The translations under genes and the position numbers were made by a program. A stretch of 64,000 bases of DNA from Branchiostoma lanceolatum (taxonomy: Eukaryota > Chordata > Leptocardii > Amphioxiformes > Branchiostomatidae), in the NCBI RefSeq assembly GCF_035083965.1, contig NC_089737.1, positions 16,283,529 through 16,347,528 on the forward strand, written 5' to 3'. This document shows positions 11,565 through 63,853 of the stretch, piece after piece (position 1 is the first letter of the stretch; each line of letters opens with the position of its first letter). Below the pieces are notes generated by a model. That model saw only the letters and a program-made list of their open reading frames with translations, was not told the origin of the DNA and did no database searches.

Positions 11565-14500
11565 ATGGCAGAAGAAACAGGTTTAGACCTCCCCACAGAC
11601 GAGGAGATGGACCAGATGAAGCCTCTTAAGCTAGCAAGGCTTCTTCAAGAGCTTGGCATGAGCGAGGATGAAACTGATGAGATGGAAAAAGATGAGGCGA
11701 GGGCAGAGCTGAAGAAGAGGACCAGGGACATACAGGCAAGAGCAGAAAAAAGGAGACGTCCCGGACAGGTAGGAAAAACAACTCCGTACTACAATGTATC
11801 TGTAACAAAATGTAACGGGTCCATGGTAAATCTAATGTAGTGATTGTAGTCATTAGTCGCTATTCCGAACAGGGTAGTTCCGATTATAGTTGTGTCATGC
11901 CGAATAAGACCGACTGTTTGAATATTGAATTACCGATCCTATTCTTGTGTTCCAATGTTTGAATGAAATCAATCGATTATAAGCATTCAACGGGTGCAGG
12001 CGCATACATCATCAACTCTATGATGGGCAAATAGTACCTGATTCCCGTCCAAAGTTTGCACCAGATCAGGTATTTTCTTATCTTCAAGGCCTACAACCAG
12101 GGTCATGGCCAGCTGAATTTTTAACCTTGTACTGCTGCCACACTTCAACTTATCAAGCGTGGCTCATTGAAGCTGTTAATTGTCACACTGAAGACAGACA
12201 GCAAAAACAATTAAAATGAAACAGTTGTGTAGATAGAATTTCAGAAATCAAGCTCCCCTATTTTTCTCCTAACACAGACTGCAGCCAAAATCCTGGACAC
12301 ACACAACTCTAAACGAAGACACATGGCAGAGTTATGCCAGGGCATTGCTGCCTACCTTGCCGGGTTGGATAAGAGTGACAAGGACAACCTGAAGATTCAG
12401 TTTGATCGTGAGGTGAAAGACATCACAAAAGATGTGCAAGGTCACTTAGACAGAGAAGAATGTCCAATTCTTGTAGCAGGTAAGCGTGTTAGAGTATAGA
12501 TTACATGTCTGCCAGCAGAGTTAAACTTAATTTTGAGGATGATATAAATTCACCGGTACAATATGTTTTACTATTTTGTCCATTAGAAATGGCATTCATT
12601 GATAGCATGACCTGCTCATCACTACTGAAGATGCACAAATAAGCGATATTTATTCAAAAGCTGTCGAATTCTTATCTTTCACCTTCAGGAGAAACATCAT
12701 CAGGAAAGAGCACTTTCCTGAACCTACTGTTGGAAGAGGACATCCTTCCTGTGGCTCACGAAAGCTCCACTTCCACCATTTGTGAGGTGAAGTACGGAGA
12801 GACCAGACAAGCCGTGGTTCATCTGCACAAGCCCACCGATCAAGGGCAATGGCAAGTAGTCATCCCACTGGATGGCACGGAGGAGCATCAAGTAGAGCTG
12901 AAAAGCTACATGCATCTGGAAGGTGCCAGACGAGACGACCGCGTCGGGTGGATTGAGATCTTTTTACCTCTTCCTCTTCTGAAAGTAATACAAAGTGCAA
13001 GATTCAAATTGTTTTAATGCTTATTTATCGTTTCGAGCTTCAACTTTTTTTACTAGTATTTGAATGACTAAATAAGTGTGAAAGGACTTAAAAGTTGTAC
13101 TGAATGTCGATACAAAACATGTAGCTAGGGGCAAAATGCATATATGAAATTCGGAACCATATGAATGATGTCATCTTAAGATCTTAAGATAATATTACAC
13201 TAGAGTTCAGGAATTTTTTGCGTAACTTGTATTTAAACTCATTTTGGCGACAGAAGTCAATCAAAAAGTAGATATTCGTTCGTGCAACGGCATGTTCTAG
13301 CTTGTGATATCATCCATACAAAAATAAGGACAAATGGCTGAATACGTCGTTTTTTTTTTTTCCTTTCAGGGAGGAATAGTCCTAGTGGACAGTCCAGGTG
13401 TGGGAGAGAGTGAGATGATGGACAAAGTTGTGGCCGACTACATCCCAAAATCCTTTGCCTTCCTCTACATCATTGACAGCTCAAGGGCAGGGGGAGTGCA
13501 AAAGGACAGGGTGAGGCCTAGCTTTTTAAAACAATTCATACTTGTACATACTAGATTATAATGTTCTGTCAACTTTATTTCTAGACAATGATTTTGAATG
13601 CCATTATATACATAGAAACTAGACTTTGGTGACCTCATACTTTCATGAAATATTTAAAGCTTTTGTGAATTTTATTCACTGTTGAAATTCACGCGTTACT
13701 AACCTACACATGTCAGAAGTATGAAGTCCCATCATTTACCAGTAATGCGTCTGGTATTTTCAAATTTATTATGCAAATTATGCCCTAATTTGCACGTTTA
13801 ATATTTGTTTATGCTCCTCCTGTCATGAATTACATGGGATACAATGAAGCCCTATTATGTAAAGTACTAAGCCCTTGAATAATAGTAAACCATATCATAC
13901 ATATACACAGTTACTATAGATACAAGTTATGTATAAGATACATAACTTGCATCTAACTGTGTACATTCCTGGCTAAACAACCTGCATGGCCAAAATGATG
14001 CGGCACATCCCCGGAAAGGATTCAGTTTCACGGTGTCTTGGGCTAGGCAGAAACGATTATACAAATTTCTGTCAAAGAGACATCAATGGCCAGAACTGCA
14101 TACATTGTTTTGGTATTTCTGTTAATTGCACCATTCCATGCTAACACCAAGTTCATTGTAACGTCTATATATGATGCATGCTTTGCTATGCCTTTACTTT
14201 GCAGTTTGGTCGACTTCTTGATCTATATGCAAAGGAGAATGCCAAGGACTTTGACCCAGAATCAGCTATGTTCATCTGCAACAAGTGGGACACTGTGTTA
14301 CCAAGGGATCAAGACAAGTTAAAAAAAAGCACACTTGAAAAGCTGTCAGAGATGTGGCCTGGCCTGAAGGAGGAGTCACAGGTGTTCTTTGCGTCCACAA
14401 GAAAGGTAAGCGGTTGCAGTTTGCACATGTGAGTCCACTGTTAACATGTTTGCTGACCATGATGTAATCACATACGGTGTGACTCTAATTTAAATTACCT

Positions 14501-17500
14501 TAATTTTATTGTGGCTAATTTCCTGTAGCAGCAAAGAAAATCCCGCTGTGCTTCTTACAGAAAATAGTTGCAGTGCGTACAAGCAACGAAATTGTAACAA
14601 AAATGTCATTTTTAACACTTTGTATTGCTTTGCTACCAATATAACTGAGATGTAGGAGATTTGAAAATACATGATGCTGCACGTTGGCCATTCTACCAAA
14701 ATTGAATTCTGTAAGCGCTATTGTATCTTCTATTGATTATCCCTCAAACTTGAGATACCTTTTTAGGGGGACCCATTACCAGCGAAGCGGATTCTCCTCA
14801 ATCTATTCTGACGAGGTCTAATTGAAGCAGGGTTGAATGTTTAATATAACCATTGTTGCTGCAGGCACTAGGGCTAGGAAGGATTCTCTCTGAAGACTTC
14901 ATCAAAGTGCTGGATGGTCTCGACTTGCTGCTGCCAAAGAGTCTGGACATCAAACTGGAAACTCAGCACAGGTATGAAGAATCATAGCATGTGCACATGT
15001 CCTCTTACTTTAAGATACTTACAGACTGTCTCTATATTGATTGATCCATAATGCTGAAATGTACAAAAAGAAGTAAGATGATGACAATTTTATCCTGGAA
15101 ATTCATAACCATAGGGATTCATGATCAGCAAGTTTACCCGAAGTTAAGAAAAACTATATTGTATCTGGGCTTATAGTTTCTCCATAATATTTCAGGTTAC
15201 TGACTCGACTTTTGAGTGCAGCTCTGACCCACATTAATGTTCAGTTAAATGTTGCCCGTCAAAACCTCACCAAGGGGGCTAAACTGAAAAGGTATCAAGA
15301 GGCAAAGGAACATCCCCAGTTATTTCAAGTCAAAGAAACCCAGGGCATGGAGGAATTGGAAATCATGTTGAGGGACAACCTGGAAAAGGCAAAGAACTTT
15401 CTTTCTAAGCTGGTAAGGTCTGGCGAACTGAAGGATATGATGACAGCAAAACGGCTACCAGTGATAGCCCAGCTGATTTCCTCGCATAGGAAGATGAGGT
15501 ATCAAGATAAGTTGGTCGAGTTGGACAAAAGAAGTACCGGTGAAGATTTCCCACAGCTGAAAGATCTCTATGAAGCCCTGCCAAACACGCTGGCTCATTG
15601 TCCCTCCTTCCAGCGTCTCATAACTTCACTGGAAAAATCCTTTGAAAGGAAATTGGAAGAGGTAGCAAAATCATTGGAGAATGTCCATCAGCAAGCAATG
15701 GCTTCCATCACAGGTGGTACCTCCTACCCAGTGCCCCACATGGAAGTCCTTGATGTTCTCCAACGCCCATTACTTGACATATTCTTCAGAGGATCAACGA
15801 TGTCATCCCTCCAAAGGCGTAAATGTAAGGCCCAAAGCAGCACAACGTCCATACTCCAACGCTGCTGGAAACAAGAACCGGCAAGCACACCATTGATAGA
15901 CATCCTGATGCAGGCACTGAAGTCAGAGGAACTGATCGCCGAGCTGGCTGACGTACAGATGCAACCACAGCGGGACTTGATGGCTCTACTAGAAGATGAC
16001 ATCACAAAGATGAGGAGCATTATGGAGCTGGAAATAGACCAGACTTTCAAAGATACCAGAAGCAATGAAGATATCGTGAAGACCTATAAGCCACAGCGTG
16101 ATAAAATCAACAGCTTCCTGGGCCAGCTGGCGCTGTTCCACCTGATCGAGATGAGAAAGTACCAGTCTGATCAAGGTCCTTGGTATGACCTGGACAGCAT
16201 CACGGGTTGGACGGACACAAGGAACAAGCTAGGAGCAGGGTCCTTTGGTGACGTGTACCGTGTTCAAGTCCAATGGAAAGGAGCAGAGACTCCTGCAGCA
16301 CTGAAGCTTGTAGTTGTACTCGTGCCAAATGCTACCACAACCTCAGACATAACGTCGAAAACTGCCTGGGAGTTCCTAAAGGAGGAAGAGAACCTACGGT
16401 AAGCAAACAACTCACTTTAGATATTGAGTCCCCATTCACTCTTATCCCATATAAACTATCTGAATTGTGAAAAGCATGTTATCGTTCTCATGAAACAGAT
16501 AAAACTGTTTTATCACCAGGGAGCTGCAGGGGGAGCACATTGTGGAGTACTATGGTACCGCCTGCAGACGGGAGGGAGACAGACTGAGGCTGGGACTGGT
16601 CATGGAGCTGTGTGTGGGCACACTGGCAGACAGGATTGTTGGCAAGACTAAGAGGTATCAATGTTTACATTGACTAAAAGGACCGTGAATCTGTATTTGT
16701 ATTGTATTGTCGTTATAATTGGCGGTGCACAACATCGATCTATTCATTTACATGTATATGCTACAAATGAAACGACCTTGGCAGTATTATCCCAGCAGTT
16801 TTATCCCTCGAAGAAGAAAAAAGAACAGGTCTGGAAAGAAATTTTATAGTCCCATCTCTCCATGAGGGATAGAAGTAAGGCAGTCTACAGCAATTGCGAT
16901 ATGAATTTTTATAGACAAGAAAAGAAGCCAACATTCCTGGGATAAACGCAGTTGTCACATTAACTGAATTGTGCACATGAAGCATCCACTGAAGTCTTAA
17001 GAGCATTTAATGCATTGCAGGAACCATAACCCAGCCTGGTGGGGTGATGCCCCAGAGAAGCTGGCAGCAGCCTTCAGCTACACCCGGAACCTGGCAGTGC
17101 AGCTGTGTGAGGGACTCAGGACCATCCATGATGCTGGGTATATGCACCGGGACCTCAAACTCATCAATATCCTGGTATGTTGTGCACCTATCTTCGCCCT
17201 TGCCTTCGTCAAGAAGGTTATGTTTTCGGTAGCATTTGTGTATGTCTGTGCGTCTGTCAACATGATAACTCGAAAATGCAGGGATGGATTGTCTTGATAT
17301 TTGGTATGTGAGTAGGTCTTGATGAGACATCGATATGATTAGATTTGGGGCTCCACAGCAGCTTTCCCTGGTACTGCAGTGGAATTCCTGGCTTGTTCTT
17401 GATTTGGTCACGATTTTTGGTTGGTAAATAGCTCTTGTGGTTGAAAAGAAGTGACAAAAGTCTGGGCTCCCTGGCAACTTTCTTTTAAACTTGCAGGGAG

Positions 17501-18635
17501 CATTTCAGTTGCAGACTTTGAAACAGAATAAGTCAAGAAGGGATGATGGATTTGTATGATGTTTGACCTGTAGGCGACTATGATAAGACCGACGTAATGG
17601 TATGTTAAGTATGCAAATTAAAATCTGTTTTGTATAATCTATGAAAAAATCTATATCACTCAGTAATTACACACATAACTTTCTTTGAGAGGAATGGATA
17701 TGAATAATGCAAAAAATGACCAAATCTGCATAATAGTTATTCATGAGAAAACCATAAAATATCTTAGTGGCAAATGGTGGTATATTCATACTAGTGACAC
17801 ATGTACATGTAGGTTAGGTAAAGGTGCATATCATCAGGCATAGATAATGCTAATTTCGACATCATATTTGCATTGTTATGAGACAATATTACTTGGAGCA
17901 CATGTAAGTATGGGGTTGTGGAACTCTTTTGTAATTCTTATGACTTCAAACAATTATTATAAAGTTATTGTGGTCATTCGTTTTAAGTCTTTGGTCTGGT
18001 TCCCTTAAGCTTGTTTTCTGCTTTACTCATTCAATAGTATATCAATAGACGTGTTGGTAGCTTATGTTCGTCAAATTCATGATCAAATGTTTGTCTCCTT
18101 TGCTTAATCTATGTAAAAGGTGACTAAGGACAACACTGTGAAGCTTGCTGATTTTGGACTGACCAAGCGAGAGGTAAACATTACTGGGACAGTAGCTGGA
18201 ACTCTCCTCTACGCAGCACCCGAGGTGAAGGAAGAAGGGAAGATGTACGACAAGAGTGCGGACATCTACAGCCTGGGGCTCATCCTGTGGGAGATGTGGT
18301 ACGGGAGAACCTTGTATGGGATCCAGGTCTGTAGATTTCTTTCAGGTTATCAAAGTAACTTTTGAAAAAGATCTGGCTGAGTGGTAAGTCACAATGCAGA
18401 AACTGTTATAACTTTAACGCGTGATTCTTTTTGTTATTGCCAGGATTCCACTTACATCAAACATATGGAAGAGGACTTGAAGAAAGGGAGGGACTTCAAA
18501 ATGCCACGATGGGAGGGTACAGTCACCCCCATCCCAGAGTGGACCAGGCTGATCCACGACTGTCTCAAGAAAGATCCCAGGGAACGACCAAAGATACAGA
18601 AGTGTCTGGACAGGATCTCAGCTATGAAGGTTTAG
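11565..18635 (+). CDS. Dynamin-like GTPase/protein kinase fusion, paralogue A
   Basis: Eleven coding exons: 11565-11768, 12278-12479, 12689-12984, 13370-13510, 14205-14405, 14865-14971, 15196-16398, 16520-16654, 17021-17174, 18120-18326 and 18444-18635. Together they encode 1013 residues. Residues 1-68 are a charged helical leader with a SAP-like look (MKPLKLARLLQELGM). The GTPase domain follows, with P-loop GETSSGKST (136-144), DSPG (241-244) and NKWD (307-310), in the dynamin/mitofusin style. A helical middle covers about 340-700. The C-terminal kinase has GAGSFGDVY (from 730), AALK, HRD (872-874), DFG (892-894) and an APE motif, so it looks catalytically competent. The plan resembles DSTYK; orthology is untested. 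No membrane segment is seen. It is probably a cytosolic signalling enzyme of unknown pathway. Confidence 0.88.
17205..17480. repeat. Diverged copy of the dispersed intronic repeat in paralogue A intron 9
   Basis: Phrases such as tgtctgtgcgtctgtcaaca, gatatttggtatgtgagtag and cttgatttggtcacgatttt align in order with the copies at 8420-8705 and 27335-27690, but with many differences. The rest of this intron (about 17480-18110) is AT-rich and shows no gene. Confidence 0.45.
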
Positions 18636-18655
18636 CAGAGCCGAAAATAGACAAA

Positions 18656-19500
18656 AGTAGTGAGTGCATTTTGTCAGAAGTAGTGAGTGCATTTTGTCAG
18701 AAGTAGTGAATACAGTTTGTCAGCAGTGAGTGCATTTTGTCAGAAGTAGTGAGTGCATTTTGTCAGAAGTAGTGAGTGCATTTTGTCAGAAGTAGTGAGT
18801 GCATTTTGTCAGAAGTAGTGAATACAGTTTGTCAGCAGTGAGTGCATTTTGTCAGAAGTAGTGAGTGCATTTTGTCAGAAGTAGTGAGTGCATTTTGTCA
18901 GAAGTAGTGAGTGCATTTTGTCAGAAGTAGTGAGTGCATTTTGTCAGAAGTAGTGAGTGCATTTTGTCAGAAGTAGTGAGTGCATTTTGTCAGAAGTAGT
19001 GAGTGCATTTTGTCAGAAGTAGTGAGTGCATTTTGTCAGAAGTAGTGAATACAGTTTGTCAGTAGAGTGCATTTTGTCAGAAGTAGTGAGTGCATTTTGT
19101 CAGCAGTGAGTGCATTTTGTCAGAAGTAGTGAGTGCATTTTGTCAGTAGTGAGTGCATTTTGTCAGTAGTGAGAGCATTTTGTTAGTAGTGAGTTCATTT
19201 TGCCAGTAGTGCGTGCATTTTGTCAGTAGTGAGAGCATTTTGTCAGTAGTGAGAGCATTTTCTTAGTAGTGAGTTCATTTTGCCAGTAGTGCGTGCATTT
19301 TGTCAGTAGTGAGTGCATTTTGTTAGTAGTGACAGCATTTTGTCAGTAGTGACAGCATTTTCTTAGTAGTGAGTTCATTTTGCCAGTAGTGCGTGCATTT
19401 TGTCAGTAGTGAGTGCATTTTGTTAGTAGTGAGAGCATTTTGTCAGTAGTGAGAGCATTTTCTTAGTAGTGAGTTCATTTTGCCAGTAGTGCGTGCAATT
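18656..19500. repeat. Minisatellite starting 20 bp after the paralogue A stop codon
   Basis: The first block (to about 19135) repeats a 23-bp unit, agtgcattttgtcagaagtagtg, with occasional variants (gaatacagtttgtcagcagtg) that recur in the same order and mark a higher-order repeat. The second block uses a 20-bp unit (agtagtgagtgcattttgtc) with recurrent variants ttagt, gccag and gacag, again in a repeating multi-unit order. The array lies in the 3' UTR, just before the poly(A) signal at 19656. Confidence 0.92.
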
Positions 19501-19655
19501 TACTTCTGATAATATCAAGGGCTGGCAACTGTGTCCCCTTTCACAGACAGAAAGACATTCTTAGCTCTTGTTAACTTTACAACCCCTTTTATAAAAGTCC
19601 ACACAATATACCAAAATCATGTTCAACCACGTTTTTATTCCTGTTCATTGGTATT

Positions 19656-19661
19656 AATAAA
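19656..19661 (+). terminator. Poly(A) signal AATAAA of paralogue A
   Basis: This AATAAA lies about 1.0 kb after the stop at 18633-18635 and just beyond the minisatellite, making it a plausible + strand 3' end. It lies only about 110 bp from the minus-strand signal of PSMA5, so the two genes converge closely. Confidence 0.5.
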
Positions 19662-19763
19662 GATTTGCAAAGTAACAAGGCATTATGGGATGTGCGGGTC
19701 AAAGTTTAACTTTTATCAAGTGAGAATGTATAAAGATTGTAACATACAGATTTCATTGACATC

Positions 19764-19769
19764 TTTATT
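19764..19769 (-). terminator. Poly(A) signal of PSMA5 (minus strand)
   Basis: tttatt on the + strand reads AATAAA on the minus strand, about 120 bp after the PSMA5 stop at 19891-19893. Confidence 0.55.
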
Positions 19770-19890
19770 GTCCCCAGAACAATTAGCGATGTGTTACTCA
19801 TAACTGTCGATTACCATCCCCCCGCCCCACTATAACAGAACTACCAACTGTGAACTAGGATATCTACAACTGCCCTTTGACCCCTGACCC

Positions 19891-23079
<3,189 letters not shown>

Positions 23080-23330
23080 TCTATTGTAGTTGTTGTTTCT
23101 TCTGCGCTGCCAAAAATAGGTGAAACCTGGACAGATATTTTTTTCTCGACAGAAAATTCAGCGAAACGTTTTTTTCAGCGTGACAAAGCACAGCGCGCCG
23201 CCTGACCTCTGACCCGCCGCGGGGCAGCCTGGGTAAGGTCGGAGGTCATCCCTGCACAAAGACTGACTGCAAAATCATAAACATTTGTGTGGCGAAAATA
23301 ACCAAAATTGGCCGCGAAAACGGCGGATTT
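23080..23330. promoter_or_regulatory. Putative shared promoter region of PSMA5 and the 15-finger gene
   Basis: This GC-rich stretch directly upstream of the PSMA5 start separates two divergently transcribed genes. It contains tgacctctgaccc at about 23208-23220, which on the minus strand is a direct repeat of two AGGTCA-like half-sites with 1-bp spacing. A further ggtcggaggtcatcc follows at about 23239. There is no obvious TATA box. The promoter role rests on position and composition only. Confidence 0.4.
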
Positions 23331-47900: not shown

Positions 47901-50248
47901 CAATTAAGACTGATCAGTTTAAAGACAAGGTGCTTTTCTATCATATTTCTTATTTCAGATTATTGTTTCTTCCCACAGGGATTTGAGGGGAGAGCACATT
48001 GTGGAGTACTACGGTACAGCCTGTAAGAGGATGAAGACAGAAGGACAACCTGACAGCCTGAAACTGGGGCTGGTCATGGAGCTGTGTGACGGCACACTGG
48101 AGGACAGGATTGTTGGGCAGAGGTAGGCATGCCGTGTTCGTTTACGACATAGATTATTGTGTTTTTATCTATTTATTTATTTATTCATTTATTCATTTAT
48201 TGAATTTTCAGACATCTGGATGGCCCATTCAATTTTGGCAAATTGAGTTTCAACTACAAAACAGTAAAATCGTCAGTATAGCAAAGAAAAATAACTTATG
48301 ACAAAATTGTAACATAAGTAACAGAGGATTGTTAAGACATAAGTTGCCACTGTCTCGGCACTCCGCAGCTTTCCCACACTGTAGTTTAGCCTTGTCAGGG
48401 CATGTAGGAATATGTTAACACTGTAAAGCACTGGATCTGATAGCAAAAGCAAGCATATATCGCAATAATGGCCATGGTTCAATTATGTCAGAGATACTGC
48501 TGCTGAATCCACGTTATGATTTCTTCCCATGTAGAGAACACAACCCAACTTGGTGGGGGCATGACCCTGTGATGAAGCAGCGAGCCTTCAGCTACACCCA
48601 GAACCTGGCAGTGCAGCTGTGTGAGGGACTCAGGACCATCCATGATGCAGGCTACATCCACAGGGACCTCAAGCTCATCAATGTTCTGGTCAGTCCTCTA
48701 TACATGTACATCTATACATCTAACGCCTGGTTTGTGAAGTAGGGAATCAACTACACTGAAAAGTTGCATGTAGTTTCCTCACAACGTAGCATGGATTCAC
48801 GATTCTGCTGCAGGCTGGCTTGACAATTAGTTAGTTGTTCTTCTATCGTTGCTAGAGTTGAGTGAGATATGCGTTGAATTCAGAACAGTCATCAGGATTC
48901 TGAATACAAGTTGGGTTGATTATAGGTTTTTTGTAGACTAGTTTCCCATGCTGTAAGAGAAAAGAAACTTAGCACATGCCTTAGGTCTTAGTCATAAAAT
49001 TTCAGCTCCTACATGAATTGGAAGTGGGTCAGGGGAACTGATCTTTGCTTCTGATTGACTTGCAAGCGGTCGGCCATCTTGAAATCAACTCATTCGTTCA
49101 TATAGATATGTATCGAATATACAATTTGAGCAGCTAAATCAGATATTTAAGGAAGGTATGTGCCTTTACCTTTGTGCCAAATTTCAACTCATTCCGCAGA
49201 AAAAATGAACCTGCTATGATAGAAATGGAATTAACTTTTGATCCCCGCTCGTATGTTACTGCATTCAATTTCAGACTGCAGTTTTGGACTGTAACATGTT
49301 TTTCGCAGTGGCAGTATAGTATACGGCTCTATAGGAATTACGATGTCCTCCTTGGCGTCCACAGGTTACTGCAGGTGACGTTGTGAAACTTGCTGACGTC
49401 GGTGTGACGAAGAGAGAAGTGGACGTGACGGGCACCATCATAGGCACAGTCATCTACGCAGCACCTGAGGTGATGGGACGGAAAATGTACAACAAGAGTG
49501 CAGACATCTACAGCCTGGGGCTCATCCTGTGGGAGATGTGGTATGGACGGACCATTTGGCAAGCTATGGTAAACATGAACAATATCATGTTATCAATGCA
49601 AACAATACATGGTACGTTGAAATTGCCAGGGTAGTTGGGAGAATGCGTAGTATGTTATAGGTCAAACGCGAATGAACGAGTGCATAATCGTCCAAGTAGC
49701 TGAAAGGCGTATGTATGACTGTGATTTTCCTTTCTCGTTAGCAATAACTATTCTAGGCTTATCCTAATGGATTGCAACACGAACTACTGTAACATCTCTT
49801 TAAATTGTGGGAATAACGCATTGCCAAGCTCTTACCAAACACAATCGAAAGGGTCTGGAATTGGAAAAAGCAAAAACATGGTTTTAGTTTTCTGAAACCC
49901 AGCCATAGTAGCTTCACCTGTTAAACCCCAACTGCTCGCCAGCGCTACTTAAACTGCTAACTTGACAATCAGGACGGATACACAATTTGTGTCAGTCTGA
50001 CAATGAATCCGTCCTGCTATTAACCACAGGATGATCGCGGCCTGAGGAGTCTGACAGAAGGCGAGTCCATGATGATGCCACATTCTCCTGACTCCGTCCG
50101 CCCCATCCCGGAGTGGGAAACTCTGGTGCGAGACTGTGTGAGTCCAGACGCCAGCAGGCGGCCCAGCGCGCTGCAGTGTCTGCAGAGGATCAGGGACATG
50201 ACGATGGAGGACAGCTCCGAACTTTCCCTGCCAACATCATGTGTCTGA
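38978..50248 (+). CDS. Dynamin-like GTPase/protein kinase fusion with membrane hairpin, paralogue B
   Basis: Eleven coding exons: 38978-39163, 40158-40368, 40495-40802, 41642-41782, 42677-42883, 44628-44734, 44913-46076, 47979-48122, 48535-48688, 49365-49568 and 50030-50248. They encode 1014 residues. The order follows paralogue A: SAP-like charged leader, P-loop GESSAGKST, DSPG, NKWD, helical middle, kinase. The 141-, 107- and 154-base exons equal those of A and all intron phases agree. B alone has two adjacent hydrophobic segments (residues about 553-604, within LASFVYSGMIITPF and SLAIVLGVTALVM), a possible membrane hairpin as in mitofusin-type proteins. The kinase keeps GGGSYGEVY, AALK and HRD (865-867) but reads DVG (885-887) instead of DFG. 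Intron 5 begins with GC instead of GT. Function is unknown. Confidence 0.87.
39705..39860 (-). mobile_element. LINE 3'-end fragment
   Basis: On the minus strand the sequence runs ggaagaccttgtataagcca, ctatggcttttttctt and ends in tgcaaataaaccaaaccaac, a short tail of accaa repeats. Ending in a short microsatellite after AATAAA is typical of CR1/L2-like LINE 3' ends. It lies in intron 1 of paralogue B. Confidence 0.5.
40881..41161. mobile_element. Fold-back MITE with TA ends in paralogue B intron 3
   Basis: Inverted arms of about 110 bp run from TAGGATATTTGGAGTTTC to the complementary GAAACTCCAAATATCCTA. They share cgtttcggtgtctgtcagac, caccttcttcagagcttctg and cagtactgcttctcaccgct. About 55 bp separate them. 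The outermost TA on each side fits a Tc1/mariner-type TA duplication. The arms are nearly perfect, so the insertion is young. Confidence 0.85.
43950..44125. repeat. Weak fold-back element in paralogue B intron 5
   Basis: agatctctagtgcagcatcc, cccag at about 44005 faces ctgggggatgttgggttgga, gatct at about 44060-44085, with weaker complementarity outward. It is probably an old MITE. Confidence 0.4.
44345..44580 (-). mobile_element. LINE reverse-transcriptase C-terminal fragment
   Basis: The minus strand reads RIGLLRRLRPHLCTNVANLL, YKTLALPHLEYYNVVWENCS and AANKQRLHVL. This is the familiar thumb region of CR1/L2/Jockey-type LINEs (RIGLLRR...LxxSLxLPHLxYxxxVW). It is truncated at both ends and lies antisense in paralogue B, immediately upstream of exon 6. 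Confidence 0.8.
46085..47520. repeat. Intron 7 of paralogue B: dispersed repeat with ATGCAAAT pairs
   Basis: 46090-46265 loosely matches the dispersed intronic repeat (gtgtgtctgtcggtctgttg, aacttaagaacggctggatg). 46375-47300 contains at least four aattatgcaaattag / taatttgcataa pairs. A reversed copy of the head (ataccaacagacataccaaa, cagacacgcagagacacg) lies at about 46950-47020. No gene is seen. Confidence 0.5.
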
Positions 50249-53200: not shown

Positions 53201-53380
53201 TGAGTCATCAAAACTACATTTTGTACATAGTAACCACATACGTTGTTGTGCACTGATGTCACTTAGCTTGGTGATTTGGTTTAGAAAGACACCAAAATAT
53301 TTTTGAAAGAACTATAATTACAGACCTCTCAGCTTATATCTTACTCATGAGATCATTGGTTGATGTGTTGGAGAGATGGT
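50249..53380. other. Spacer downstream of paralogue B; no gene seen
   Basis: Only short frames occur. At 51060-51110 there are two CRE-like sites (tatgacgtatgac and tatgacgtcacagc) in a slightly GC-richer patch, possibly regulatory. An (aaac)n run is at 50910-50930. The rest is AT-rich with no recognisable repeat boundary. Confidence 0.4.
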
Positions 53381-54283: not shown

Positions 54284-54876
54284 CTGGTACAGGTGAATCA
54301 TGAGAACATAAGTTAAGTTTGAAAATGTATTTTGTCGCATACTGTATTCTGGCTCATAGATCTATAGAGAAATACCAAAAATCAGTCAATAGATCAATTT
54401 ATTTACAAATCTACAAGTCATATTCCATCACTGTTGTATATGACATTGTACAGGTAAAGGTACGATAGCCCTGCATTTTGACACACCTGTTTGTCCAAGT
54501 TCGGACTGGAATATTCTTGAGGTGTCTGGATCTGACTCAGGCTCAGCCTCATATACCGTTTAGCGTGGTTATATAAACCAGATTCATCGTCACTCCAAAT
54601 CAACATGAAATCAATAGTTTTGAAGCAGAACATGCTAGATTGTTTAAAAGGTCGGTTGGGAGGCCTCATATGATTTAACGTAATTTGTAATCAGCTCTCA
54701 GAATTTAACGTAATTCGTAATCGGCGGCGAAACTTTTTCGTAATTCGTAATCACTACCCCCCCATGCAGGCCCTCTTTGCTGTGGGAGCAAAACTGGGGC
54801 AGTTGTCTTGAAAAAAAACATGGTATGATCTTTCCTCCCTACATTTGCTTGGAGATTTAGGCCTGGTTTCCTGTTT

Positions 54877-57800
54877 CTACTCAACCTTCATAGCTGAGAT
54901 CCTGTCCAGACACTCCTGTATCTTTGGTCGTCTCTTTGGATCCTTCTTGAGACAGTCGTGGATCAGACTGGTCCACTCAGGGATGGGGGGGACTGTACCT
55001 TCCCATCGTGGCATTCGGATGTCTCTTCCTCTCTTCAAATCCTCCTCAAGCCTTTTTGAGTAGATGTCGTCCTGGCAAAGACAAATTAAAACAGTTCGCT
55101 TTCAGAGGCATTGTTGTCTTCACCTGTAGCATTCCAACAAGTAAAGCCTGTTCCTCTATTGTAACAAATGTGCATGGTAATTGCTATTCTCACACCTGTA
55201 CAATATAGTTACAAGCTTAAGACTTAAGTCTTAAAGCTATCAGTTTTTTGACCAAACTTAAGTATTTGCTATACCGTAAAATTCCTATTTACGTACGCAC
55301 CCCTCCTAAAGTACGCACCCCTGATTTGGGAACAATTGCAGGCCTGACTCAGTGTGTTGAAACATTCAGGGGGAAAACACTCCTAACCTACGCACCCCCT
55401 CTCCAGCATTTCGGTGGATAGTCAAGAGGTTGACATGATCATCCTTCCAATGATGTTTACCGGCTTAAAGGGTTACTGAGAAAATGTTTCTGGGTAGGAA
55501 ATGTCAAACAATTTAAATATATGTTTTATTTATTCTTTATTACTGATTGATTGTGTGGTAGCCTTTCACACTTCATATCCACACTTCATTTGCATGAAGA
55601 TGTACCGTACTCTCAAGCTGACATGCGATTTTCACGAGGAAGAACCCCTCCTAACATACGCACCCCGACTTTGGCGTCGGCCTGGAGCACCTGCTTGCAA
55701 CTTGAAAACTTTAAAAAGTGCGTACGTAAATAGGGATTTTACGGTATTGTTAAAAGCAATATTACATCACTTATACAGATTGTTTATGTTTGTAAGTAAA
55801 GAACTTCCTTTATATATATAGTGCTTTTTACCAACTGACTTATGAGTACATAAAAGATCACAGAACACATGATCATGATCAGCACTCCATAAGGTTACTA
55901 ATTAGTGATGCATATATATACTAATATAGAGAGGTAATTAAACCAGTCCTGCATAAGGTACTACCCAGTGCTGCACTTTCATTCAACAAGGAAAAGCTTA
56001 AAAGCTGCTAGTAAGTCAGACTGACCTTGTGCCCATAGAGGGTTTTCCCATACCACATCTCCCACAGAATGAGGCCCAGGCTGTAGATGTCTGCACTCTT
56101 GTCGTACTTCTTCTTTTCTTTCACCTCAGGTGCTGCGTAGGTGGCAGTTCCAGCTATTGTCCCTGTTATTCTCACCTCTTGCTTGGTCTGTCCAACATCA
56201 GCAAGCTTCACAACATCATCTCGAGTCACCTTCATACATAATATAATCAAGATCTCATGAACATGAGGTACGGACAGACGTTAAACAATCTGCTGGACAA
56301 GTATATCCTTTGAGATGAATCAGAACCGGATGGTACCATAATCCAATTGGTATCTATAAGAGTGTTGGTATCAGATTTGAAAAAAAAAAAAAAAAATTGA
56401 ATAGAAGATGCTCCTGTATGTAGGTTTTTCCAGCCTCAAGGTTTTGACTATTCAGTCATCTTAGCAATAGAGTGCTCACCTGGCATGGTTTGACACATTT
56501 CTAGATCCTTTTACATGAGATGCGTCAGTTTGTTTTGTCTTTGAATATCATGGACTAGCCATAAGACATGCTTTTAGGTCTCGGTTTGGAGTTGTTTTTT
56601 TACGATTCGGAACGGCAATAGCGCTTTTCCAAACATCATTTTCGGGACAATTTAATGTTTTCGATGGATTGTGGTGCCTTGCCACTGACCGACAGACGCT
56701 TTTCATATTCTCTGGAAAACGTCATTTTTCGTGAAAACTGTCATAAAGCAATTTTCACCACCAAAAACAGCTATTTTGGGGGCATTCCTTCAAAGCCCCT
56801 GGAAGGAAAATAAGAGTTTTCCTAGGACAATGACTGATGGCAATAAAGGTCATCAATCTCTGTGTGTAATGAAAAATGGAAAAAAACTGAGGATACGTTT
56901 TCCGCAATCCCTGATGGCGCGAAACCATGCAAAACGCTTGTAGAACGCAAAATTTTGGTAAGGCCTAGGAAAAAAAATGTTGTCTCCTGTTACGGTCCCG
57001 AAAAAATTAGGGTCGGTAGGTAGGGATTCACTTTTTTTTCAGATCTTTTCTTTTTTTTACTGGTGACATCAAATGCTCTGACTGTTGGCCTCACAGTACA
57101 GTGCTTGGGCCAACCTCCTAACCATTGCACTCAATTCTCATGTGGTTAAACATGCGCTGCCCAGAGGGGGGTGAACAAAATCTAATAAAACTAGATTAAA
57201 AGTAACCCCCGGAATAAAATTACCAATTGGAAAAGTGGCAGATGAATTATCAAGAATATACATGTATAATAATCACTAAATACAATAATCTATGTCATTG
57301 TCCAGTTGCTTTCTCACCGTCAGTGTCATAACATTTTAACAACTTTCTTTGTTTAATTTTCTAAAATAATTGTTCCAAAGTTCAGAATTTTATTAAAATC
57401 CAAGCTTAGTAAAGGGACTCATTCACTACTTGTGCAATCTCAATGTTGCCAACAAAAAAATTCAGCACTAGTATACTAGCAACACTTCGCCCCATAGAAA
57501 TAAACAGCAACTCAAACACTGCCCTCTACCGGTAGTAGCCGGTACTGCAGGTTTACGTCATTACTCTCACGCATTCTCGCGACATTTAGCGTTAGTTGGT
57601 AAATTCAAGATGGCGGCTGAAAAATATCGTCTCTCGACCGGGAGCCGAGCTCTCTTTGCAGACGGATTTTTGCGTTTCAGGCAGTATAAAACAAGTTGAC
57701 TATGGATACAAACGAATGAAAAAGTATCGGTAACTTTATATATAACTTGTTTGGTTCGGGGTCGATGTCTGTGTTTTGGTTGAAAATTTACAAAAGTGAG

Positions 57801-60800
57801 AGAGTGTGTGTGTGCACGTGTCTGACGCAGAGTGGTAGAATATTAGAGTTTTCTTGGTCCAAATTTTCTACTTAGTGCAAATAATTAACGCAAATCGAGT
57901 TCTCAGGCCCGAAATTTAGGTAGTGCACTGCGTAATCTGGGTTTGAAAATAACTTGCACCAATCAAAACATTGTTGCGCTGCACAACTGCGCAAGCGGTT
58001 TTTTCGCGCACAGTTTTTCATCACTCGAGTTCAGAAATTATTTTTCCCAGTGACCGATACCCCCAAAAAAGGCTAGGGTCGGGGGGTTTGCTAGGGTCGG
58101 GGGGTTTGCTAGGGTCGGGAGGTTTGCTAGGGTCGGGAGGTTTGCTAGGGTCGGGGGGTTTGCTAGGGTCGGGAGGTTTGCTAGGGTCGGGAGGTTTGCT
58201 AGGGTCGGGAGGTTTGCTAGGGTCGGGAGGTTTGCTAGGGTCGGGGGGTTTGCTAGGGTCGGGGGGTTTGCTAGGGTCGGGGGGTTTGCTAGGGTCGGGG
58301 GGTTTGCTAGGGTCGGGGGGTTTGCTAGGGTCGGGGGGTTTGCTAGGGTCGGGAGGTTTGCTAGGGTCGGGAGGTTTGCTAGGGTCGGGGGGTTTGCTAG
58401 GGTCGGGGGGTTTGCTAGGGTCGGGGGGTTTGCTAGGGTCGGGGGGTTTGCTAGGGTCGGGGGGTTTGCTAGGGTCGGGAGGTTTGCTAGGGTCGGGGGG
58501 TTTGCTAGGGTCGGGAGGTTTGCTAGGGTCGGGGGGTTTGCTAGGGTCGGGGGGTTTGCTAGGGTCGGGGGGTTTGCTAGGGTCGGGAGGTTTGCTAGGG
58601 TCGGGGGGTTTGCTAGGGTCGGGGGGTTTGCTAGGGTCGGGAGGTTTGCTAGGGTCGGGGGGTTTGCTAGGGTCGGGAGGTTTGCTAGGGTCGGGAGGTT
58701 TGCTAGGGTCGGGGGGTTTTGCTAGGGTCAGTCGGGTAACCGGAAACACAACATTTTTTTTCCTATGCCTTATAAGGCTACAAGACCGCGTTACTGTAAC
58801 AGTTATGGCGCGCTAATACCAGGAAGTCTTCGCGGACGACCAAAACTCGGAAATAAACCATAAAACGCCACGAAGATCAGACTTTTCAGGAAATATATAA
58901 AAGATTGCACATTGCGAAAGCGATCGCCGAAAAATCTGTACCAAAACTATACCAAGAAAACCTATGATTTGCATCTTGTCTTAGGGACTCTTTAGGTGTA
59001 CGGTCAATTGAAATTCCGAACCGGAACCTTAAGACACCAAATACATGTCAGGGCTCGAAATTCATCTTTGGGAATAGGTGCACTGGTGCACCCAACTCAA
59101 AAAATTGGGTGCACAGAAAGAATTTTGGGTGCACCATATAAAATAAAGTTGAATGTTCTTCAGAACAAAATTACAAAGTTTGACGCTGCTGCCTTTCTTA
59201 AGAACTTCAATCTGTAATTCTATAGCTAACTTCAAAATTTCAAACAAATAATACATTAAATAAAGTACAGCAAAAAGTTATCATGCTGTTTTTTATACTT
59301 ACATTTCAAGAATATTCTGTATACTGATGTACAATAGTACCTTAACCCTATAGGCTACAAAAATATATAGGTGCACCAGTACTGCACCCAGAGTCAAAAA
59401 TTAGGTGCACATCTCCAATTTTGGGTGCACTGGGTGCACATGCACCCACTATTTCGAGCCCTGCATGTATTTAAAGGTAAATGAAATGCCTTTGCAAATA
59501 TTAGACTGTCACTGTGAGTGAGTTTAATGATATTACAAAGGAACATACAGTACCAGAATGTTGATGAGCTTAATGTCTCTGTGGATGTAGCCAGCATCGT
59601 GGATGGTCCTGAGTCCCTCACACAGCTGCACTGCCAGGTTCTGGGTGTAGCTGAAGGCTGCTGCCAGCTTCTCTGGGTTAGAACCCCACCAGGCTGGGTT
59701 AAGGTTCCTATAAAAACATAATTGGTCAATGCACTTCAGCACAGCACTGAGCTTGAGCTCAGAATGCAGGTTTCCCTGGGACAGCATCCACCAGCTAGCT
59801 AGGCTGGATCCCTGAAAAATATAATTATGATATTTACTGGACATAGTAGAAGTAGACTGGTAGATGTTATTCTGTTGGTGCATTGTCTCTCCATAGCTGT
59901 GCAGGTAAAGTTGCTGCTAAGTCTATGCTCAGGGTCAACACCCTGCCTGGAATAGCATGTTACTATATAATTGTAGTTTGTTGTAAACAAACAAACTGCA
60001 GTTTAATCTTAGGGTCTTTCTGTAGGAACAGTTCTAGAACAAAGTTGTAAATTTTTTACACTATCTCACCTGTTGCCAACAATCCTGTCCTCCAGTGTGC
60101 CCTCACACAGCTCTGTGACCAGCCCCAGCCTCAGGCCACCCTTCACCCTCTTGCAGGCTGTACCATAGTACTCCACAATGTGTCGAGTGTTCATCCGTTG
60201 ATCCGGAGTACTAGTGTCCATAGATTCCTTCAGTTTCCTATACAGAGTAAAACACTTTGTAAATTATGTGTGATACCTATGTTGTTTAGTATCAGCACCA
60301 GGGGGGTAATGATACCATCCCATGATTCCTCAATACACATCCAGCAATACACACCCACAGATCTAGATGGCTGACTGTGGGCAAGAAGCATATAGTTTTG
60401 TCATGTTGCCTTTGATATTGCAAGAACTGGTACAATTTAGCCATTAGATTTTCTTCTCTTGAATTGTCAAAAGACTTATTATATAAGTAGTCCATGAGAC
60501 TGTCTGACCTTTGCAATTTGTGCACAACTTTCTAAATTGTGTCATAAACACTTGCAGACCATTGTACAAATATTCACCACAAAGTCTGTGTCCAAACTTG
60601 ACCAAACTACTATAATTTTCTTTACTTTCCCACGGGTGCTATTGGGTGCATTTGTTTTTTTCTGATTCACATTAGTCAAGTAGTATGATATCACCAATCA
60701 ACAGTGTTTACAGTGTTTTCAGAAAAACACTGTAACAGTTACAGTGTTTTCAGAAAAACAGTGTTACAGTGTTTTTCTGAAAACACTGTAAACACTGTTG

Positions 60801-63800
60801 ATTGGTGATATCATACTGCTTGTGCATCAGAAAAAAAAATGCATCCAATAGCACCCGTGGGAAAGTAAAGAAAATTATGTTTGTTTACAATTATTACAAA
60901 ACAATATCAAATATGATTTTCTTTACTTTCCCACAGGTGCTTTTTGGTGCATTTGGGTTTTTCTGATGCACAAGTAGTATGATATCACCAATCAACAATT
61001 TAGAAAGTTGTACACAAATTACAAAGGTCAGACAGTCTCATGGACTACTCATTCTTTTGACAATTCAAGAGAAGAAAATCTTAATGATCAAATTGTACCA
61101 GTTGCTGCAATATCAAAGGCAACATGACAAATCAATATGCTTCTTGCCCACAGTCAGCCATCTGTGGGTGTGTATTGCTAGATGTGTATTGAGGAATCAT
61201 GGGATGGTATCATATCTCCTCCTGTATCAGCACATTCTGTGCAAATCGACATTGCTCACTTTCGGTGACCCTTGATCACTCTAATCTACATACCTTTACC
61301 CTGATTGATACTTGCTCACCCTGACTGACCCACTGTCATTGTCACTTGCTCAGCAAGATTGATCTTGCTCACCTTAATTTATCCTTAGCCTTCTTATATC
61401 CCTTACTCACCCTGATCTTCTGCTGTTTACCTTGATTCACACCTGTTGTGTCAGATACAACTCTCTCTAAAGTCTGTGATAGTTTAATGTGTGCACTGTT
61501 GATGGAAATGTCTAACCTTAAGTTGTCTTCCTCTATCAGGAATTCCGTAGCATTTTTTTCTTCTGTGGTCAGGTCACAGGGGTAGACACCAATCTTCAAT
61601 GCAGCTGGAGTCTCTTTTCCCTTATACACAACTAGAACCTTGAAGACCTCTGCGAAAGATCCGCCTCCCAGCCTGTTTCTTGTGTCTGTCCATCCTCGAA
61701 TGTTGTCCAGCTCATATTCATACTTCCTGATTTGTGTCAGATAGAACATCGCAAGTTGGCGGAGGAGGATATATGTCTGCTGACACACTGGAGCATATGC
61801 TTTAGTGATCTCAGCATCGGTTCTTGGGTCATCGAAGATGTCTTCTATTGTCTTATACACAATGCCCTTCATCTTTTCTACATCACTTTTGAATGTTACC
61901 AAGACATCAAGCTGTGGCTGTACTTGCTTTTCAGCAATCGCACGCAGCAGATCATCCGAAGATAGCACTTTCTTCAGAATGTCCACCAAGGGTGTGTTGA
62001 TAGGGGCTCTTTGGAGTTGTTCATCGATTCCAGGGGCTGTTATATGGAACTTTGTATTCCGTTCAATCAAGTCAAATGCTGAATGTGTTAAGCTAATGTA
62101 GCTTTGTACTGCAGAATTCATCCATGCTTGCTGCTCGTACTTAATACCATTAACTTCCATGTCAGCTGGTGTTGAAACATCCCCCAAAGTGACCATCATG
62201 TCTCTTTGTGCACTCCTCATTGTTGCAAGTGTCTTGGACATGATCTTCCGATGATTTGCATTCATTGAAGCAATGTGGCCCCTGTATGATGAAGAGCATC
62301 TGCAGTTGCTGTAGATGTGACGTACTGTGCATTCGCAAAGAGCTTGCAAACTAGACAGATCAGAACGACTGGAGCGAGTTTTTTTCTTTTGTGTCAACGT
62401 GGCCAGTGGCTCCTCCTTTATGTCAGTCAGAAAATGCCACAGGTCTCCAACTGCTACAACCGCATGTAGGGAAGCCAGTGTTTCTGCCTTACTGTACTTC
62501 ACAATGCTTTCTAATTCCTTGATGTCCTTGTCCATTGGTTCTTGCAATGGTTTTATTTCGCTTAATATTGCATCCTTGATGTCTTCATCTCGACTGGTAG
62601 TAAAGTTTAGCCACAGGTCAATGTGGTTTAAAGCCTTGTTCAAAAGTGCACTCAGGTGCCTACAAAATATTTGAAAGGTACAAAATGAATCTTGAAAAGT
62701 CCAATGCCCAGCTTGCAAACATGTAAAAAGTAAGAAGTTATATTGTACTCAGGGCTCGAAATAGCTATAGTGGGTGCATGTGCACCCAGTGCACCCAAAA
62801 TTGGAGCTGTGCACCTAATTTTTGACTGTGGGTGCACTGGTGCACCTATATATTTTTGTAGCCTATAGGCTTAAGGTACTATTGTACACTAGTATACAGA
62901 ATATTCTTGAAATGTAAGTATAAAAAGCAGCATGATAACTTTTTGCTGTACTTTATTTAATGTATTATTTGTTTGAAATTTTGAAGTTAGCTATAGAATT
63001 ACAGATTGAAGTTCTTAAGAAAGGCAGCAGCGTTAAACTTTGTAATTATGTTCAGAAGAACATTCAACTTTATTTTATCTGGTGCACCCAAAATTCTTTC
63101 TGTGCACCCAATTTTTTTAGTTGGGTGCACCAGTGCACCTATTCCCAAATATGAATTTCGAGCCCTGGTACTAGTTCTTCTGGTTGTAGGCTTCATGCAT
63201 GTGACAGTTCGAGGTTCAACAACCTAGAATTTTCATGAACTTTGAAGTTCAAGAAAAAAATTCCAGATTCCACTCAGAAAGATCATGTCTGTGCTTCTTT
63301 CAAAAACCTAAAAAATTAATGATAACAAAGTTGAACTTTAAGCTTTTTTTTGTGATAAGCATAAACCATTTTTAAATGTCAATTGTTCTAGTCACACATA
63401 CAAAAGGACGACACTGAAACAACAGTGCCACCTCTAGAACTTCTTTAGGCCACACCAATTTAATTTCTTGGTTAACGGATTTTTATTTTCAAAAAATAAA
63501 AAATTTTCGAAAAAAAAATCATGAAAACGGTACGCTGGGCCAGCCTTCTGTTTTCATGAATTTTTTTTTTTCTAAAATTTTTTTTTTTTAAATAAAAATC
63601 CGTTAACCAAGAAATTAAAATTGGTGTGGCCTTAAGGAAAAAAACCCCAGTAAGAACAAACTGCTCATATTCATTGTGCGAAGTTTACAGTGCCACACGA
63701 TGTAAATAGCAAAATGGTGGGCAACGTTGATATATTGATGCAATACCTGTACTGAGCCTTCAAGTTTATGTTGAAACTCTGAGCCAGCAGCAAGTCAATG

Positions 63801-63853
63801 CCATTCAGTGCTTCAGCTAAGTCTTCAGGGAGAATTCCTCCAAGCTGGCCAGC
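54877..63853 (-). CDS. Dynamin-like GTPase/protein kinase fusion, paralogue C (5' part outside window)
   Basis: Six exons on the minus strand: 63747-63853, 61517-62659, 60070-60237, 59554-59707, 56026-56229 and 54877-55071. The phases match exons 6-11 of A and B, and the 107- and 154-base exons are identical in length. The frame begins with the post-GTPase helix (AGQLGGILPEDLAEALNGI); the P-loop exons lie beyond 64000. A helical middle without a membrane segment leads to the kinase: GGGSFAEVFKV, AALK, RHIVEYYGTACKR, HRDIKLINIL, then DVG rather than DFG, AAPEV and a C-terminus ISAMKVE. C resembles A more than B in the middle but shares the DVG change with B. It is inverted relative to A and B. 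Several MITEs and a large fold-back lie in its introns. Confidence 0.85.
55272..55747. mobile_element. Non-autonomous DNA element with TA ends, about 475 bp
   Basis: Terminal inverted repeats TACCGTAAAATTCCTATTTA / TAAATAGGGATTTTACGGTA, extending inward as cgtacgcacccc. Internal subrepeats (ctcctaa, tacgcacccc) recur at 55310, 55385 and 55650. It lies in the last intron of paralogue C. The outer TA may be the target duplication. Confidence 0.7.
56590..57050. repeat. Copy of the repeat family that carries the 18-bp motif
   Basis: taaggcctaggaaaaaaaat, gttgt, then gttacggtcccgaaaaaatt, agggtcggtaggtaggg (56965-57030) matches, in reverse orientation, the flank and motif of the minisatellite at 58072-58729. 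It is a single-motif version of the same element. The upstream part (56590-56960) shows no gene. Confidence 0.5.
57535..57745 (+). promoter_or_regulatory. Promoter-like patch with TCTCGCGA-type and YY1-type motifs
   Basis: Within an intron of paralogue C there are attctcgcgac (about 57583) and, 30 bp on, ttcaagatggcggctga (57605-57621). These are the TCTCGCGA and YY1 motifs common at TATA-less metazoan start sites, the latter overlapping an ATG. The ATG (57610) opens a 29-codon frame (MAAEKYRLSTGSRALFADGF...), ending in TGA. This could be a first exon of an unseen transcript antisense to C, or a relic. Confidence 0.3.
58072..58729. repeat. 18-bp G-rich minisatellite, 36 units
   Basis: The unit gctagggtcggggggttt (variant ggaggttt) is repeated 36 times with almost no other variation and a single extra T near the right end. 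As 18 is a multiple of 3, both strands stay open (GLLGSG and PSKPPD repeats), which mimics a gene. Three G-runs per unit make the + strand rich in potential G-quadruplexes. It lies in intron 4 to 5 of the visible part of paralogue C. Confidence 0.95.
59049..59463. mobile_element. hAT-like MITE, 415 bp, 5-bp target duplication, copy 1
   Basis: Ends CAGGGCTCGAAAT / ATTTCGAGCCCTG, with subterminal ggtgcac / gtgcacc repeats. It is flanked by catgt on both sides (59044-59048 and 59464-59468). There is no transposase. The CAGGG start recalls hAT; a 5-bp duplication is unusual for the main hAT group (8 bp) but is seen in some subgroups and in other superfamilies. Confidence 0.8.
60290..61240. repeat. 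Large fold-back with about 240-bp arms in paralogue C
   Basis: The left arm (60290-60540; tgataccatcccatgattcc ... tgcacaactttctaaattgt) is complementary to the right arm (61005-61235; aatttagaaagttgtacaca ... ggaatcatgggatggtatca) with modest divergence. The space between them holds a second fold-back. It lies between two coding exons, so an intact transcript would form a very long hairpin. Confidence 0.85.
60620..60885. mobile_element. Nested fold-back MITE inside the larger inverted repeat
   Basis: The arms begin ttttctttactttcccacgg (60618) and end ccgtgggaaagtaaagaaaa (60885). Inner parts atgatatcaccaatcaacag and cagtgttttcagaaaaacac are mirrored about a centre near 60740. A third, single-arm copy follows at about 60916-61000 (ttttctttactttcccacag ... 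atgatatcaccaatcaacaa). Confidence 0.8.
62750..63167. mobile_element. hAT-like MITE, 418 bp, 5-bp target duplication, copy 2
   Basis: It is the same family as 59049-59463 in opposite orientation, with the same CAGGGCTCGAAAT / ATTTCGAGCCCTG ends and flanking gtact on both sides (62745-62749 and 63168-63172). The two copies bracket three coding exons of paralogue C as an inverted pair about 3.3 kb apart. Confidence 0.85.
63448..63631. mobile_element. Harbinger-like MITE, TTA target duplication, copy 2
   Basis: It is a near-perfect palindrome of 184 bp: GGCCACACCAATTTAATTTC ... GAAATTAAAATTGGTGTGGCC, flanked by TTA at 63445-63447 and 63632-63634. The centre is gctgggccagc, with A/T runs on each side. 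It is the compact form of the element at 25037-25353. Confidence 0.8.

Follow-up and report, generated by a model that had tools for sequence, protein, structure and literature searches.

The pairing of a GTPase with a protein kinase in one polypeptide is familiar from LRRK1 and LRRK2 (the ROCO GTPase-kinases), whose GTPase is a Ras-type Roc domain with COR and not a dynamin-type domain with a helical stalk. A different pairing is found on a stretch of 64,000 nucleotides from the lancelet Branchiostoma lanceolatum (contig NC_089737.1, positions 16,283,529 to 16,347,528; hereafter the window), where three genes, called A, B and C here, are on sequence comparison paralogues of one protein type. 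The order of parts is a short, probably helical N-terminal region, a GTPase resembling those of bacterial dynamin-like protein (BDLP) and mitofusins (in A and B only), a long, probably helical stalk and a C-terminal kinase. LRRK1/2, in which Roc/COR is followed by the kinase (PMC9573974), offer an analogy only, as A and B likewise carry GTPase and kinase on one chain. A literature search found no description of a dynamin-kinase fusion in an invertebrate among the titles and passages it covered.

In GTPase sequence, A and B are like the bacterial dynamin-like proteins, namely BDLP1 of Nostoc punctiforme (2j68), Campylobacter DLP, IniA and LeoA, with E-values of 1e-14 to 1e-16 for the best match among PDB sequences. 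LeoA, a bacterial member of the dynamin family (PMC6104087), has a profile that matches B from the G3 motif through the stalk, and the paddle of BDLP1 is positioned roughly like a hydrophobic hairpin in B. Compared with these bacterial proteins, A, B and C add a C-terminal kinase, an extra, probably helical N-terminal region and many introns, and A and C are without the hairpin. Mitofusin-1/2 also match in the GTPase, more weakly than BDLP does, and their layout of GTPase, helices and membrane-attached tip (PMC6104087) would resemble B only; unlike them, B runs into a kinase about 120 residues past its hairpin. The vertebrate kinase DSTYK (dusty protein kinase, RIPK5, SgK496) likewise has a C-terminal kinase behind a long N-terminal region, but its gene is reported as single (PMC2100071), whereas A, B and C are clustered copies.

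Gene structure of A, B and C

Gene models were built by comparing the six-frame open reading frames (ORFs) of the window with one another and bounding exons by splice signals afterwards. The ORF comparison, made before any model, gave three matching stretches in collinear order whose scores were far beyond chance (A/C exon 7, E=7e-41; A/C exon 11, E=1e-38; A/B exon 3, E=1e-29). The models are as follows.

11565-18635, plus strand: gene A, 11 exons, 1013 residues; splice-consistent model, GT-AG in 10 of 10 introns
11565-11768, 12278-12479, 12689-12984, 13370-13510, 14205-14405, 14865-14971, plus strand: gene A exons 1-6, splice-bounded model
15196-16398, 16520-16654, 17021-17174, 18120-18326, 18444-18635, plus strand: gene A exons 7-11, splice-bounded model
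15196-16398, plus strand: gene A exon 7, one uninterrupted exon with the stalk, probably helical, and the N-lobe of the kinase (glycine loop, Lys, alpha-C Glu)
38978-50248, plus strand: gene B, 11 exons, 1014 residues; splice-bounded model
38978-39163, 40158-40368, 40495-40802, 41642-41782, 42677-42883, 44628-44734, plus strand: gene B exons 1-6, splice-bounded model
44913-46076, 47979-48122, 48535-48688, 49365-49568, 50030-50248, plus strand: gene B exons 7-11, splice-bounded model
63853 down to 54877, minus strand: gene C, last six exons, 656 residues, partial at the window end; splice-bounded model
63747-63853, 61517-62659, 60070-60237, 59554-59707, 56026-56229, 54877-55071, minus strand: gene C exons in 5' to 3' order, splice-bounded model

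Together with the ORF comparison, the models bear out three homologous genes at the places given for them in an initial annotation of the sequence, which had left out that C lies on the minus strand, A and B being on the plus strand. Among the 25 complete introns modelled (10 in A, 10 in B and 5 in C) the acceptor is AG in all and the donor GT in 24; the lone GC donor (GCAAGT, 42883-42889) belongs to intron 5 of B, after exon 5. Intron phases are identical at all junctions common to the copies, as had been annotated, and exon lengths are equal modulo 3 in 11 of 11 exons between A and B and in 6 of 6 between A and C. Because homology guided the choice of exons, this agreement tests the models for consistency only and carries no independent probability. 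No internal stop interrupts any of the three joined reading frames. The 107- and 154-base exons, annotated as identical in all three genes, and the 141-base exon, annotated as identical in A and B, are of equal length but differ in sequence. The single plan proposed for the three genes holds along the whole length of A and B; in C it is seen from exon 6, which directly precedes the stalk exon, and any GTPase exons of C would fall beyond position 64000. A tblastn search of the window with the three proteins gave 68 pieces at E<=1, only 2 of them outside the exons (E 0.025 and 0.26), and no fourth copy was found.

Exon 7, of 1203 bases in A, 1164 in B and 1143 in C, encodes the kinase N-lobe together with the greater part of the stalk, uninterrupted by introns. 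The joint between stalk and kinase is therefore not a gene-model error, since both parts sit inside one exon in all three copies. The joint between GTPase and stalk spans introns; here exons 5, 6 and 7 have the same arrangement in A and B and are joined in frame with the same phases, and exon 6 adjoins exon 7 upstream in C as well.

Several repeats lie in or beside these genes. In B, the peptide KLSVQYR is read at the end of exon 6 and again at the boundary of intron 6 and exon 7, mostly on the intron side (44628-44925), a small duplication at a splice junction. The introns of C contain inverted-repeat arms at 59049-59380 and 62836-63167, 97% complementary and 3.5 kb apart, and a nested palindrome with many short arms at 60309-61213; these look like foldback elements or elements of the miniature inverted-repeat transposable element (MITE) type. 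A further intron stretch of C (58072-58729) is an 18-base minisatellite of 36.5 copies with 97% matches; several of its frames are open on either strand, which produces spurious ORFs of 220-290 residues. From about 20 bases past the stop codon of gene A, some 40 copies of a 20-23-base repeat occupy 18655-19501.

GTPase, kinase and the hairpin of B

Pfam profile searches found Dynamin_N and Pkinase in A and B, and Pkinase in C. Dynamin_N covers residues 132-273 of A (8e-19, 68.7 bits) and 129-275 of B (4.9e-20, 72.7 bits), against a cut-off of 27 bits, and the G1, G3 and G4 motifs are complete in both proteins, as the initial annotation had it. Their positions were placed by hand from the exon table.

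12479-14291, plus strand: GTPase core of A, with G1 GETSSGKST (split, 12479 and 12689-12714), G3 DSPG (13388-13399) and G4 NKWD (14280-14291)
40368-42775, plus strand: GTPase core of B, with G1 GESSAGKST (split, 40368 and 40495-40520), G3 DSPG (41660-41671) and G4 NKWD (42764-42775)

Residues 1-715 of B found the Nostoc BDLP 2j68 as their best solved-structure match (E 9.8e-15), followed by Campylobacter DLP, IniA and mitofusin-1/2; the alignment of B begins upstream of the P-loop and extends beyond G3. A profile of A and B together again matched BDLP best (E 1.1e-16). PDB matches at E<=1e-3 all belong to BDLP, Campylobacter DLP, IniA or mitofusin-1/2. The mitofusin-1/2 matches have E-values of 6e-5 to 1.2e-3 over the searches; weaker ones are Slr0869 (E 0.0012-0.3) and EHD2 (E 0.5). 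No classical dynamin appeared among the 15 PDB matches of B at E<=1 or among the 21 of the A+B profile. The PADLOC model of LeoA matched B with E 3.1e-11 over residues 236-654, a span that begins in the G3 region and takes in most of the stalk, and A with E 2.9e-9, the best stretch being residues 92-171. NCBIfam gave matches to A and B only far under cut-off (DynA-type dynamin, Era, Der), and the N-terminal half of B was without a match among phage families. Judged by these scores, which are not a phylogeny, the GTPase of A and B belongs with the BDLP/mitofusin branch and not with classical dynamin; the earlier label "dynamin-like" is right for the superfamily and would more exactly read BDLP/mitofusin-like.

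The kinase domains were assigned by Pfam to residues 726-1006 of A (1.3e-41), 723-994 of B (9e-37) and 364-648 of C (7e-36).

16220-18635, plus strand: kinase of A, with HRD at 17145-17153 and DFG at 18150-18158 (Pfam and motifs, bases placed by hand)
45919-50248, plus strand: kinase of B, with HRD at 48659-48667 and DVG replacing DFG at 49395-49403 (Pfam and motifs, bases placed by hand)
From about 61677 down, minus strand: kinase of C, with DVG, within the stalk and kinase exons (Pfam)

All three kinases have the invariant Lys, the alpha-C Glu (placed by eye, using the B-Raf spacing), HRD, the Asn of HRDxKxxN, the Asp of DxG and APE. Every motif checked is present in A (glycine loop, Lys, alpha-C Glu, HRD, DFG, APE), and in C the glycine loop reads GGGSFAEV, with the third Gly changed to Ala. 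The catalytic residues thus appear largely intact in the three copies. As to the TKL kinase group, the best 60 of 2605 matches of the A kinase to PDB chains included B-Raf and CTR1 but also a Src-Abl ancestor, GCN2 and NEK7, while the best 60 of 1647 matches of an A/B/C kinase profile placed NEK7 ahead of STK4 and STK4 ahead of IRAK4, by bit score and not by phylogeny.

Between the two domains of B lies a feature that the initial annotation did not mention.

45412-45558, plus strand: hydrophobic hairpin of B, residues 554-602, a candidate membrane paddle or transmembrane hairpin (Kyte-Doolittle hydropathy)

Its 19-residue Kyte-Doolittle means are 1.91 (residues 554-572) and 2.39 (residues 584-602), and no equivalent was found by the same measure in A (best window 1.63, inside the GTPase) or in the part of C within the window (best 1.19). 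Relative to the first Gly of G1, the hairpin starts 421 and ends 469 residues downstream, and some 120 residues separate its end from the Pfam kinase start. Lipid binding by the BDLP paddle involves residues 576-583 (PMC2862293), which lie 500-507 residues past the equivalent Gly (Gly 76 by alignment with B) and about 112 ahead of the chain end (695). By this count the hairpin of B would lie roughly where BDLP and mitofusin contact the membrane. The C-terminal GED of BDLP touches the neck (residues 1-68), next to the G domain (PMC2862293); by that geometry the kinase would sit at the neck and G-domain end, away from the membrane of B.

While the anatomy is well supported, what the proteins do can be proposed only tentatively: we put at roughly 45% the probability that they are GTP-driven membrane tethers or remodellers carrying a kinase, whose assembly brings the kinases together. 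As in BDLP and mitofusin, the G domains would pair and the stalk would open, driven by GTP binding and hydrolysis. B would sit in the membrane through the hairpin at its stalk tip, and A and C, without a hairpin, would be soluble partners that may join it in mixed assemblies. Their joint action was modelled in this way because dynamin-like proteins are known to work as anchored and soluble forms or as two isoforms, among them OPA1, mitofusins and bacterial pairs (PMC6104087). Assembly on or between membranes would crowd the C-terminal kinases, which would by BDLP geometry lie near the G domain, and the crowded kinases may activate each other and so report the membrane event. The scaffold gating its own kinase that had been proposed earlier overlooked the hairpin of B, which points toward membrane work and not to a scaffold alone.

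Several observations weigh against this membrane reading. The hairpin is a hydropathy call found in one of the three copies and lies 30-80 residues closer to G1 than the BDLP paddle does, and the reading rests on B because A and C have no obvious anchor. Pfam gave nothing significant for the stalks of A and B (best E 0.053), the sole match of the C stalk is PADLOC PDC-S06 (E 0.001), and the PDB matches of the A+B profile end at the G domain. The AlphaFold models are poor, with a mean predicted local distance difference test (pLDDT) score of 37.6 for B (3 sequences) and 43.8 for the GTPase (2 sequences), which leaves the stalk and the hairpin unconfirmed. In B and C, moreover, DFG is replaced by DVG.

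The AlphaFold model of B contains long helices, yet 933 of its 1014 residues are under pLDDT 50; the N-terminal 70 residues or so are helical with pLDDT near 60-70. By eye this N-terminal region had seemed SAP-like, an assignment that was rejected, Pfam giving nothing of that kind (best E 0.19-0.23).

DSTYK and other explanations

A lineage-expanded, DSTYK-like group was proposed in the initial annotation. That the genes form a paralogous group with one plan is borne out, and the likeness to DSTYK is left plausible but unproven, the kinase scores being split. The comparisons use a provisional human DSTYK sequence. Its residues 681 (K) and 777 (D) match the kinase-dead mutants K681A and D777A (PMC11933320), and its other letters are unverified. 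With the A/B/C kinase profile, provisional DSTYK scored 71.9 bits. Among the best 60 of the 1647 PDB matches of that profile, NEK7 (84.4), an EGFR-labelled chain (82.3), STK4 (73.4) and GCN2 (72.8) rank higher and IRAK4 (70.1) just lower, so that the profile shows no preference for DSTYK. Single sequences gave similarities of 62-80 bits over both directions: provisional DSTYK scored 71.4 bits with the A kinase, just over the best PDB chain at 70.3, 62.4 with B and 67.5 with C, and the reverse query gave 79.6 for A, 72.2 for C and 67.8 for B, while the best PDB chain, BMX, reached 78.2. No PDB chain nearly identical to the provisional DSTYK kinase was found, 78.2 bits being the best. Margins of about 1 bit are too small to decide the kinship of the kinase. 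The signature HRD[LI]KLxN is common to provisional DSTYK and the lancelet kinases.

In the N-terminal half, hhalign aligned the P-loop region of A and B with provisional DSTYK 114-150 at 43% identity over 37 columns (P=0.003, with a probability of 10.5% by the program's own estimate; best P=0.085 in 20 shuffles), and HMMER found nothing significant there (2.5-9.4 bits). A and B retain GK[S/T], DSPG and NKWD, whereas provisional DSTYK reads GQDCNVKC at the P-loop position, without GK[S/T]. The earlier statement that the GTPase part of vertebrate DSTYK is degenerate is plausible for that reason, as a lead rather than a test. A dynamin-like region in DSTYK had been taken as known; of the 7 papers found to contain both DSTYK and dynamin, none has the two words in its title or abstract. 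Published trees disagree in their placement of DSTYK, which groups with IRAK1-3 and RAF-type kinases when full-length sequences are used and with RIPK6 and RIPK7 when kinase domains are used (PMC9573974). We do not file A, B and C as DSTYK; at most they may be relatives of it whose GTPase is intact.

These comparisons bear on the leading alternative, a lineage-expanded DSTYK-like group that does no membrane work and whose GTPase is soluble and controls the kinase as a nucleotide switch or scaffold. The missing hairpin in A and C would suit it, as would the A kinase scores in both directions, each just ahead of the best PDB chain, and the short P-loop-region match. Yet four other chains outrank provisional DSTYK in the kinase profile, and both the hairpin of B and the affinity to BDLP and mitofusin point toward membranes, so that we consider this reading possible but doubtful.

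Selection on the copies was gauged over aligned codons. The ratio of nonsynonymous to synonymous substitution rates (dN/dS) is 0.32 for A/B (949 codons), 0.44 for A/C (629) and 0.36 for B/C (595), with synonymous sites near saturation in A/B and B/C, and on these values the copies are argued to be kept as proteins. In kinase exons 8-9 the synonymous rate (dS) is 0.31-0.71, far under that of exon 7 (saturated or 1.6); in exons 10-11 it is low only for A/C (0.41), the values for A/B and B/C being 0.94-1.74. Fourfold-site identity is higher in exons 8-11 than in upstream exons for A/C (47/58 against 16/37, Fisher p=0.0003), B/C (31/49 against 9/29, p=0.0095) and A/B (25/48 against 28/92, p=0.017), and for A/B also in exons 8-9 against the rest (14/22 against 39/118, p=0.009), the p values of these four tests being uncorrected for multiple testing. 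This pattern suggests gene conversion among the kinase exons. We do not press the point because exon 7 aligns poorly (28-34% identity), which makes misalignment a possible partial cause of the contrast between exons, and because A/B and B/C show no lowering of dS in exons 10-11.

Clustering and uneven divergence of the paralogues are what might be expected of cell-autonomous defence, in which a GTP-driven coat would form on invading or damaged membranes, as with guanylate-binding proteins, the kinase would signal onward and an arms race would have expanded the genes. In vertebrates DSTYK, which may be a relative, phosphorylates STING on late endosomes (PMC11933320), which would also suit this reading. 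Against it, dN/dS lies below 1 over the aligned codons, positive selection was not seen at that scale, and the GTPase is not GBP- or IRG-like, the IRG-type T-cell-specific GTP-binding protein 2 matching the A+B profile in PDB only at E 0.69; we regard a defence role as quite unlikely. Partial decay, with C and perhaps B as pseudokinase partners and A alone catalytically complete, would account for DVG in B and C and for the altered glycine loop of C, but DVG by itself does not settle kinase decay in either copy, all three copies keep the remaining catalytic residues, and their joined frames are free of internal stops, which makes this reading quite unlikely as well. A faulty gene model that fuses a dynamin-like gene with a kinase gene next to it is scarcely credible as an explanation and largely refuted. 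Some published lancelet domain fusions did prove to be prediction errors (PMC4967905), but here stalk and N-lobe share one exon of 1.14-1.2 kb in three copies; A and B join exons 5-6-7 in frame at matching phases, and C has the same succession of exons 6 and 7.

Neighbouring sequence and biological meaning

Elsewhere in the window, a minus-strand gene at 2184-3573 encodes about 12-13 zinc fingers of the C2H2 type, built on a repeat of 84 bases. Plus-strand pieces at 4897-8274 resemble what we take to be NKIRAS (kappaB-Ras), Pfam giving only sub-threshold GTPase matches for the first piece; a 112-base tandem repeat of three copies at 7715-8045 appears to hold a piece of the last coding part of this gene. 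Minus-strand pieces at 19891-21970 resemble proteasome subunit alpha-5 (PSMA5), with no Pfam match for the one piece tested. A 32-base repeat at 29620-30055 (13.6 copies, 100% matches) has probably expanded very recently. No Rfam family at gathering score and no tRNA was found in the window.

Relatives were also sought in contig collections of viruses, bacteria and archaea, each scan resting on two short peptide patterns. The A/B/C alignment gave 51 pattern stretches in viral contigs, and the full and GTPase alignments gave 242 and 35 in genome contigs; none was confirmed. Because the collections are viral, bacterial and archaeal, this absence means little for an animal gene.

In its widest form the membrane reading would describe an animal kinase family derived from a bacterial or mitofusin-type membrane-fusing dynamin, in which anchored B and soluble A and C tether membranes with GTP and switch on their kinases, DSTYK being a descendant with a dead GTPase. 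We consider this wider history unlikely as a whole. If GTPase and kinase both work, one polypeptide would couple a mechanical membrane GTPase to a protein kinase; to our knowledge, GTPase and kinase are otherwise paired in one polypeptide mainly in the LRRK proteins, which have another type of GTPase. If the wider history is true, an ancestral membrane-fusion module would explain why DSTYK acts on membranes, in vacuole fusion in zebrafish and at late endosomes in human cells.

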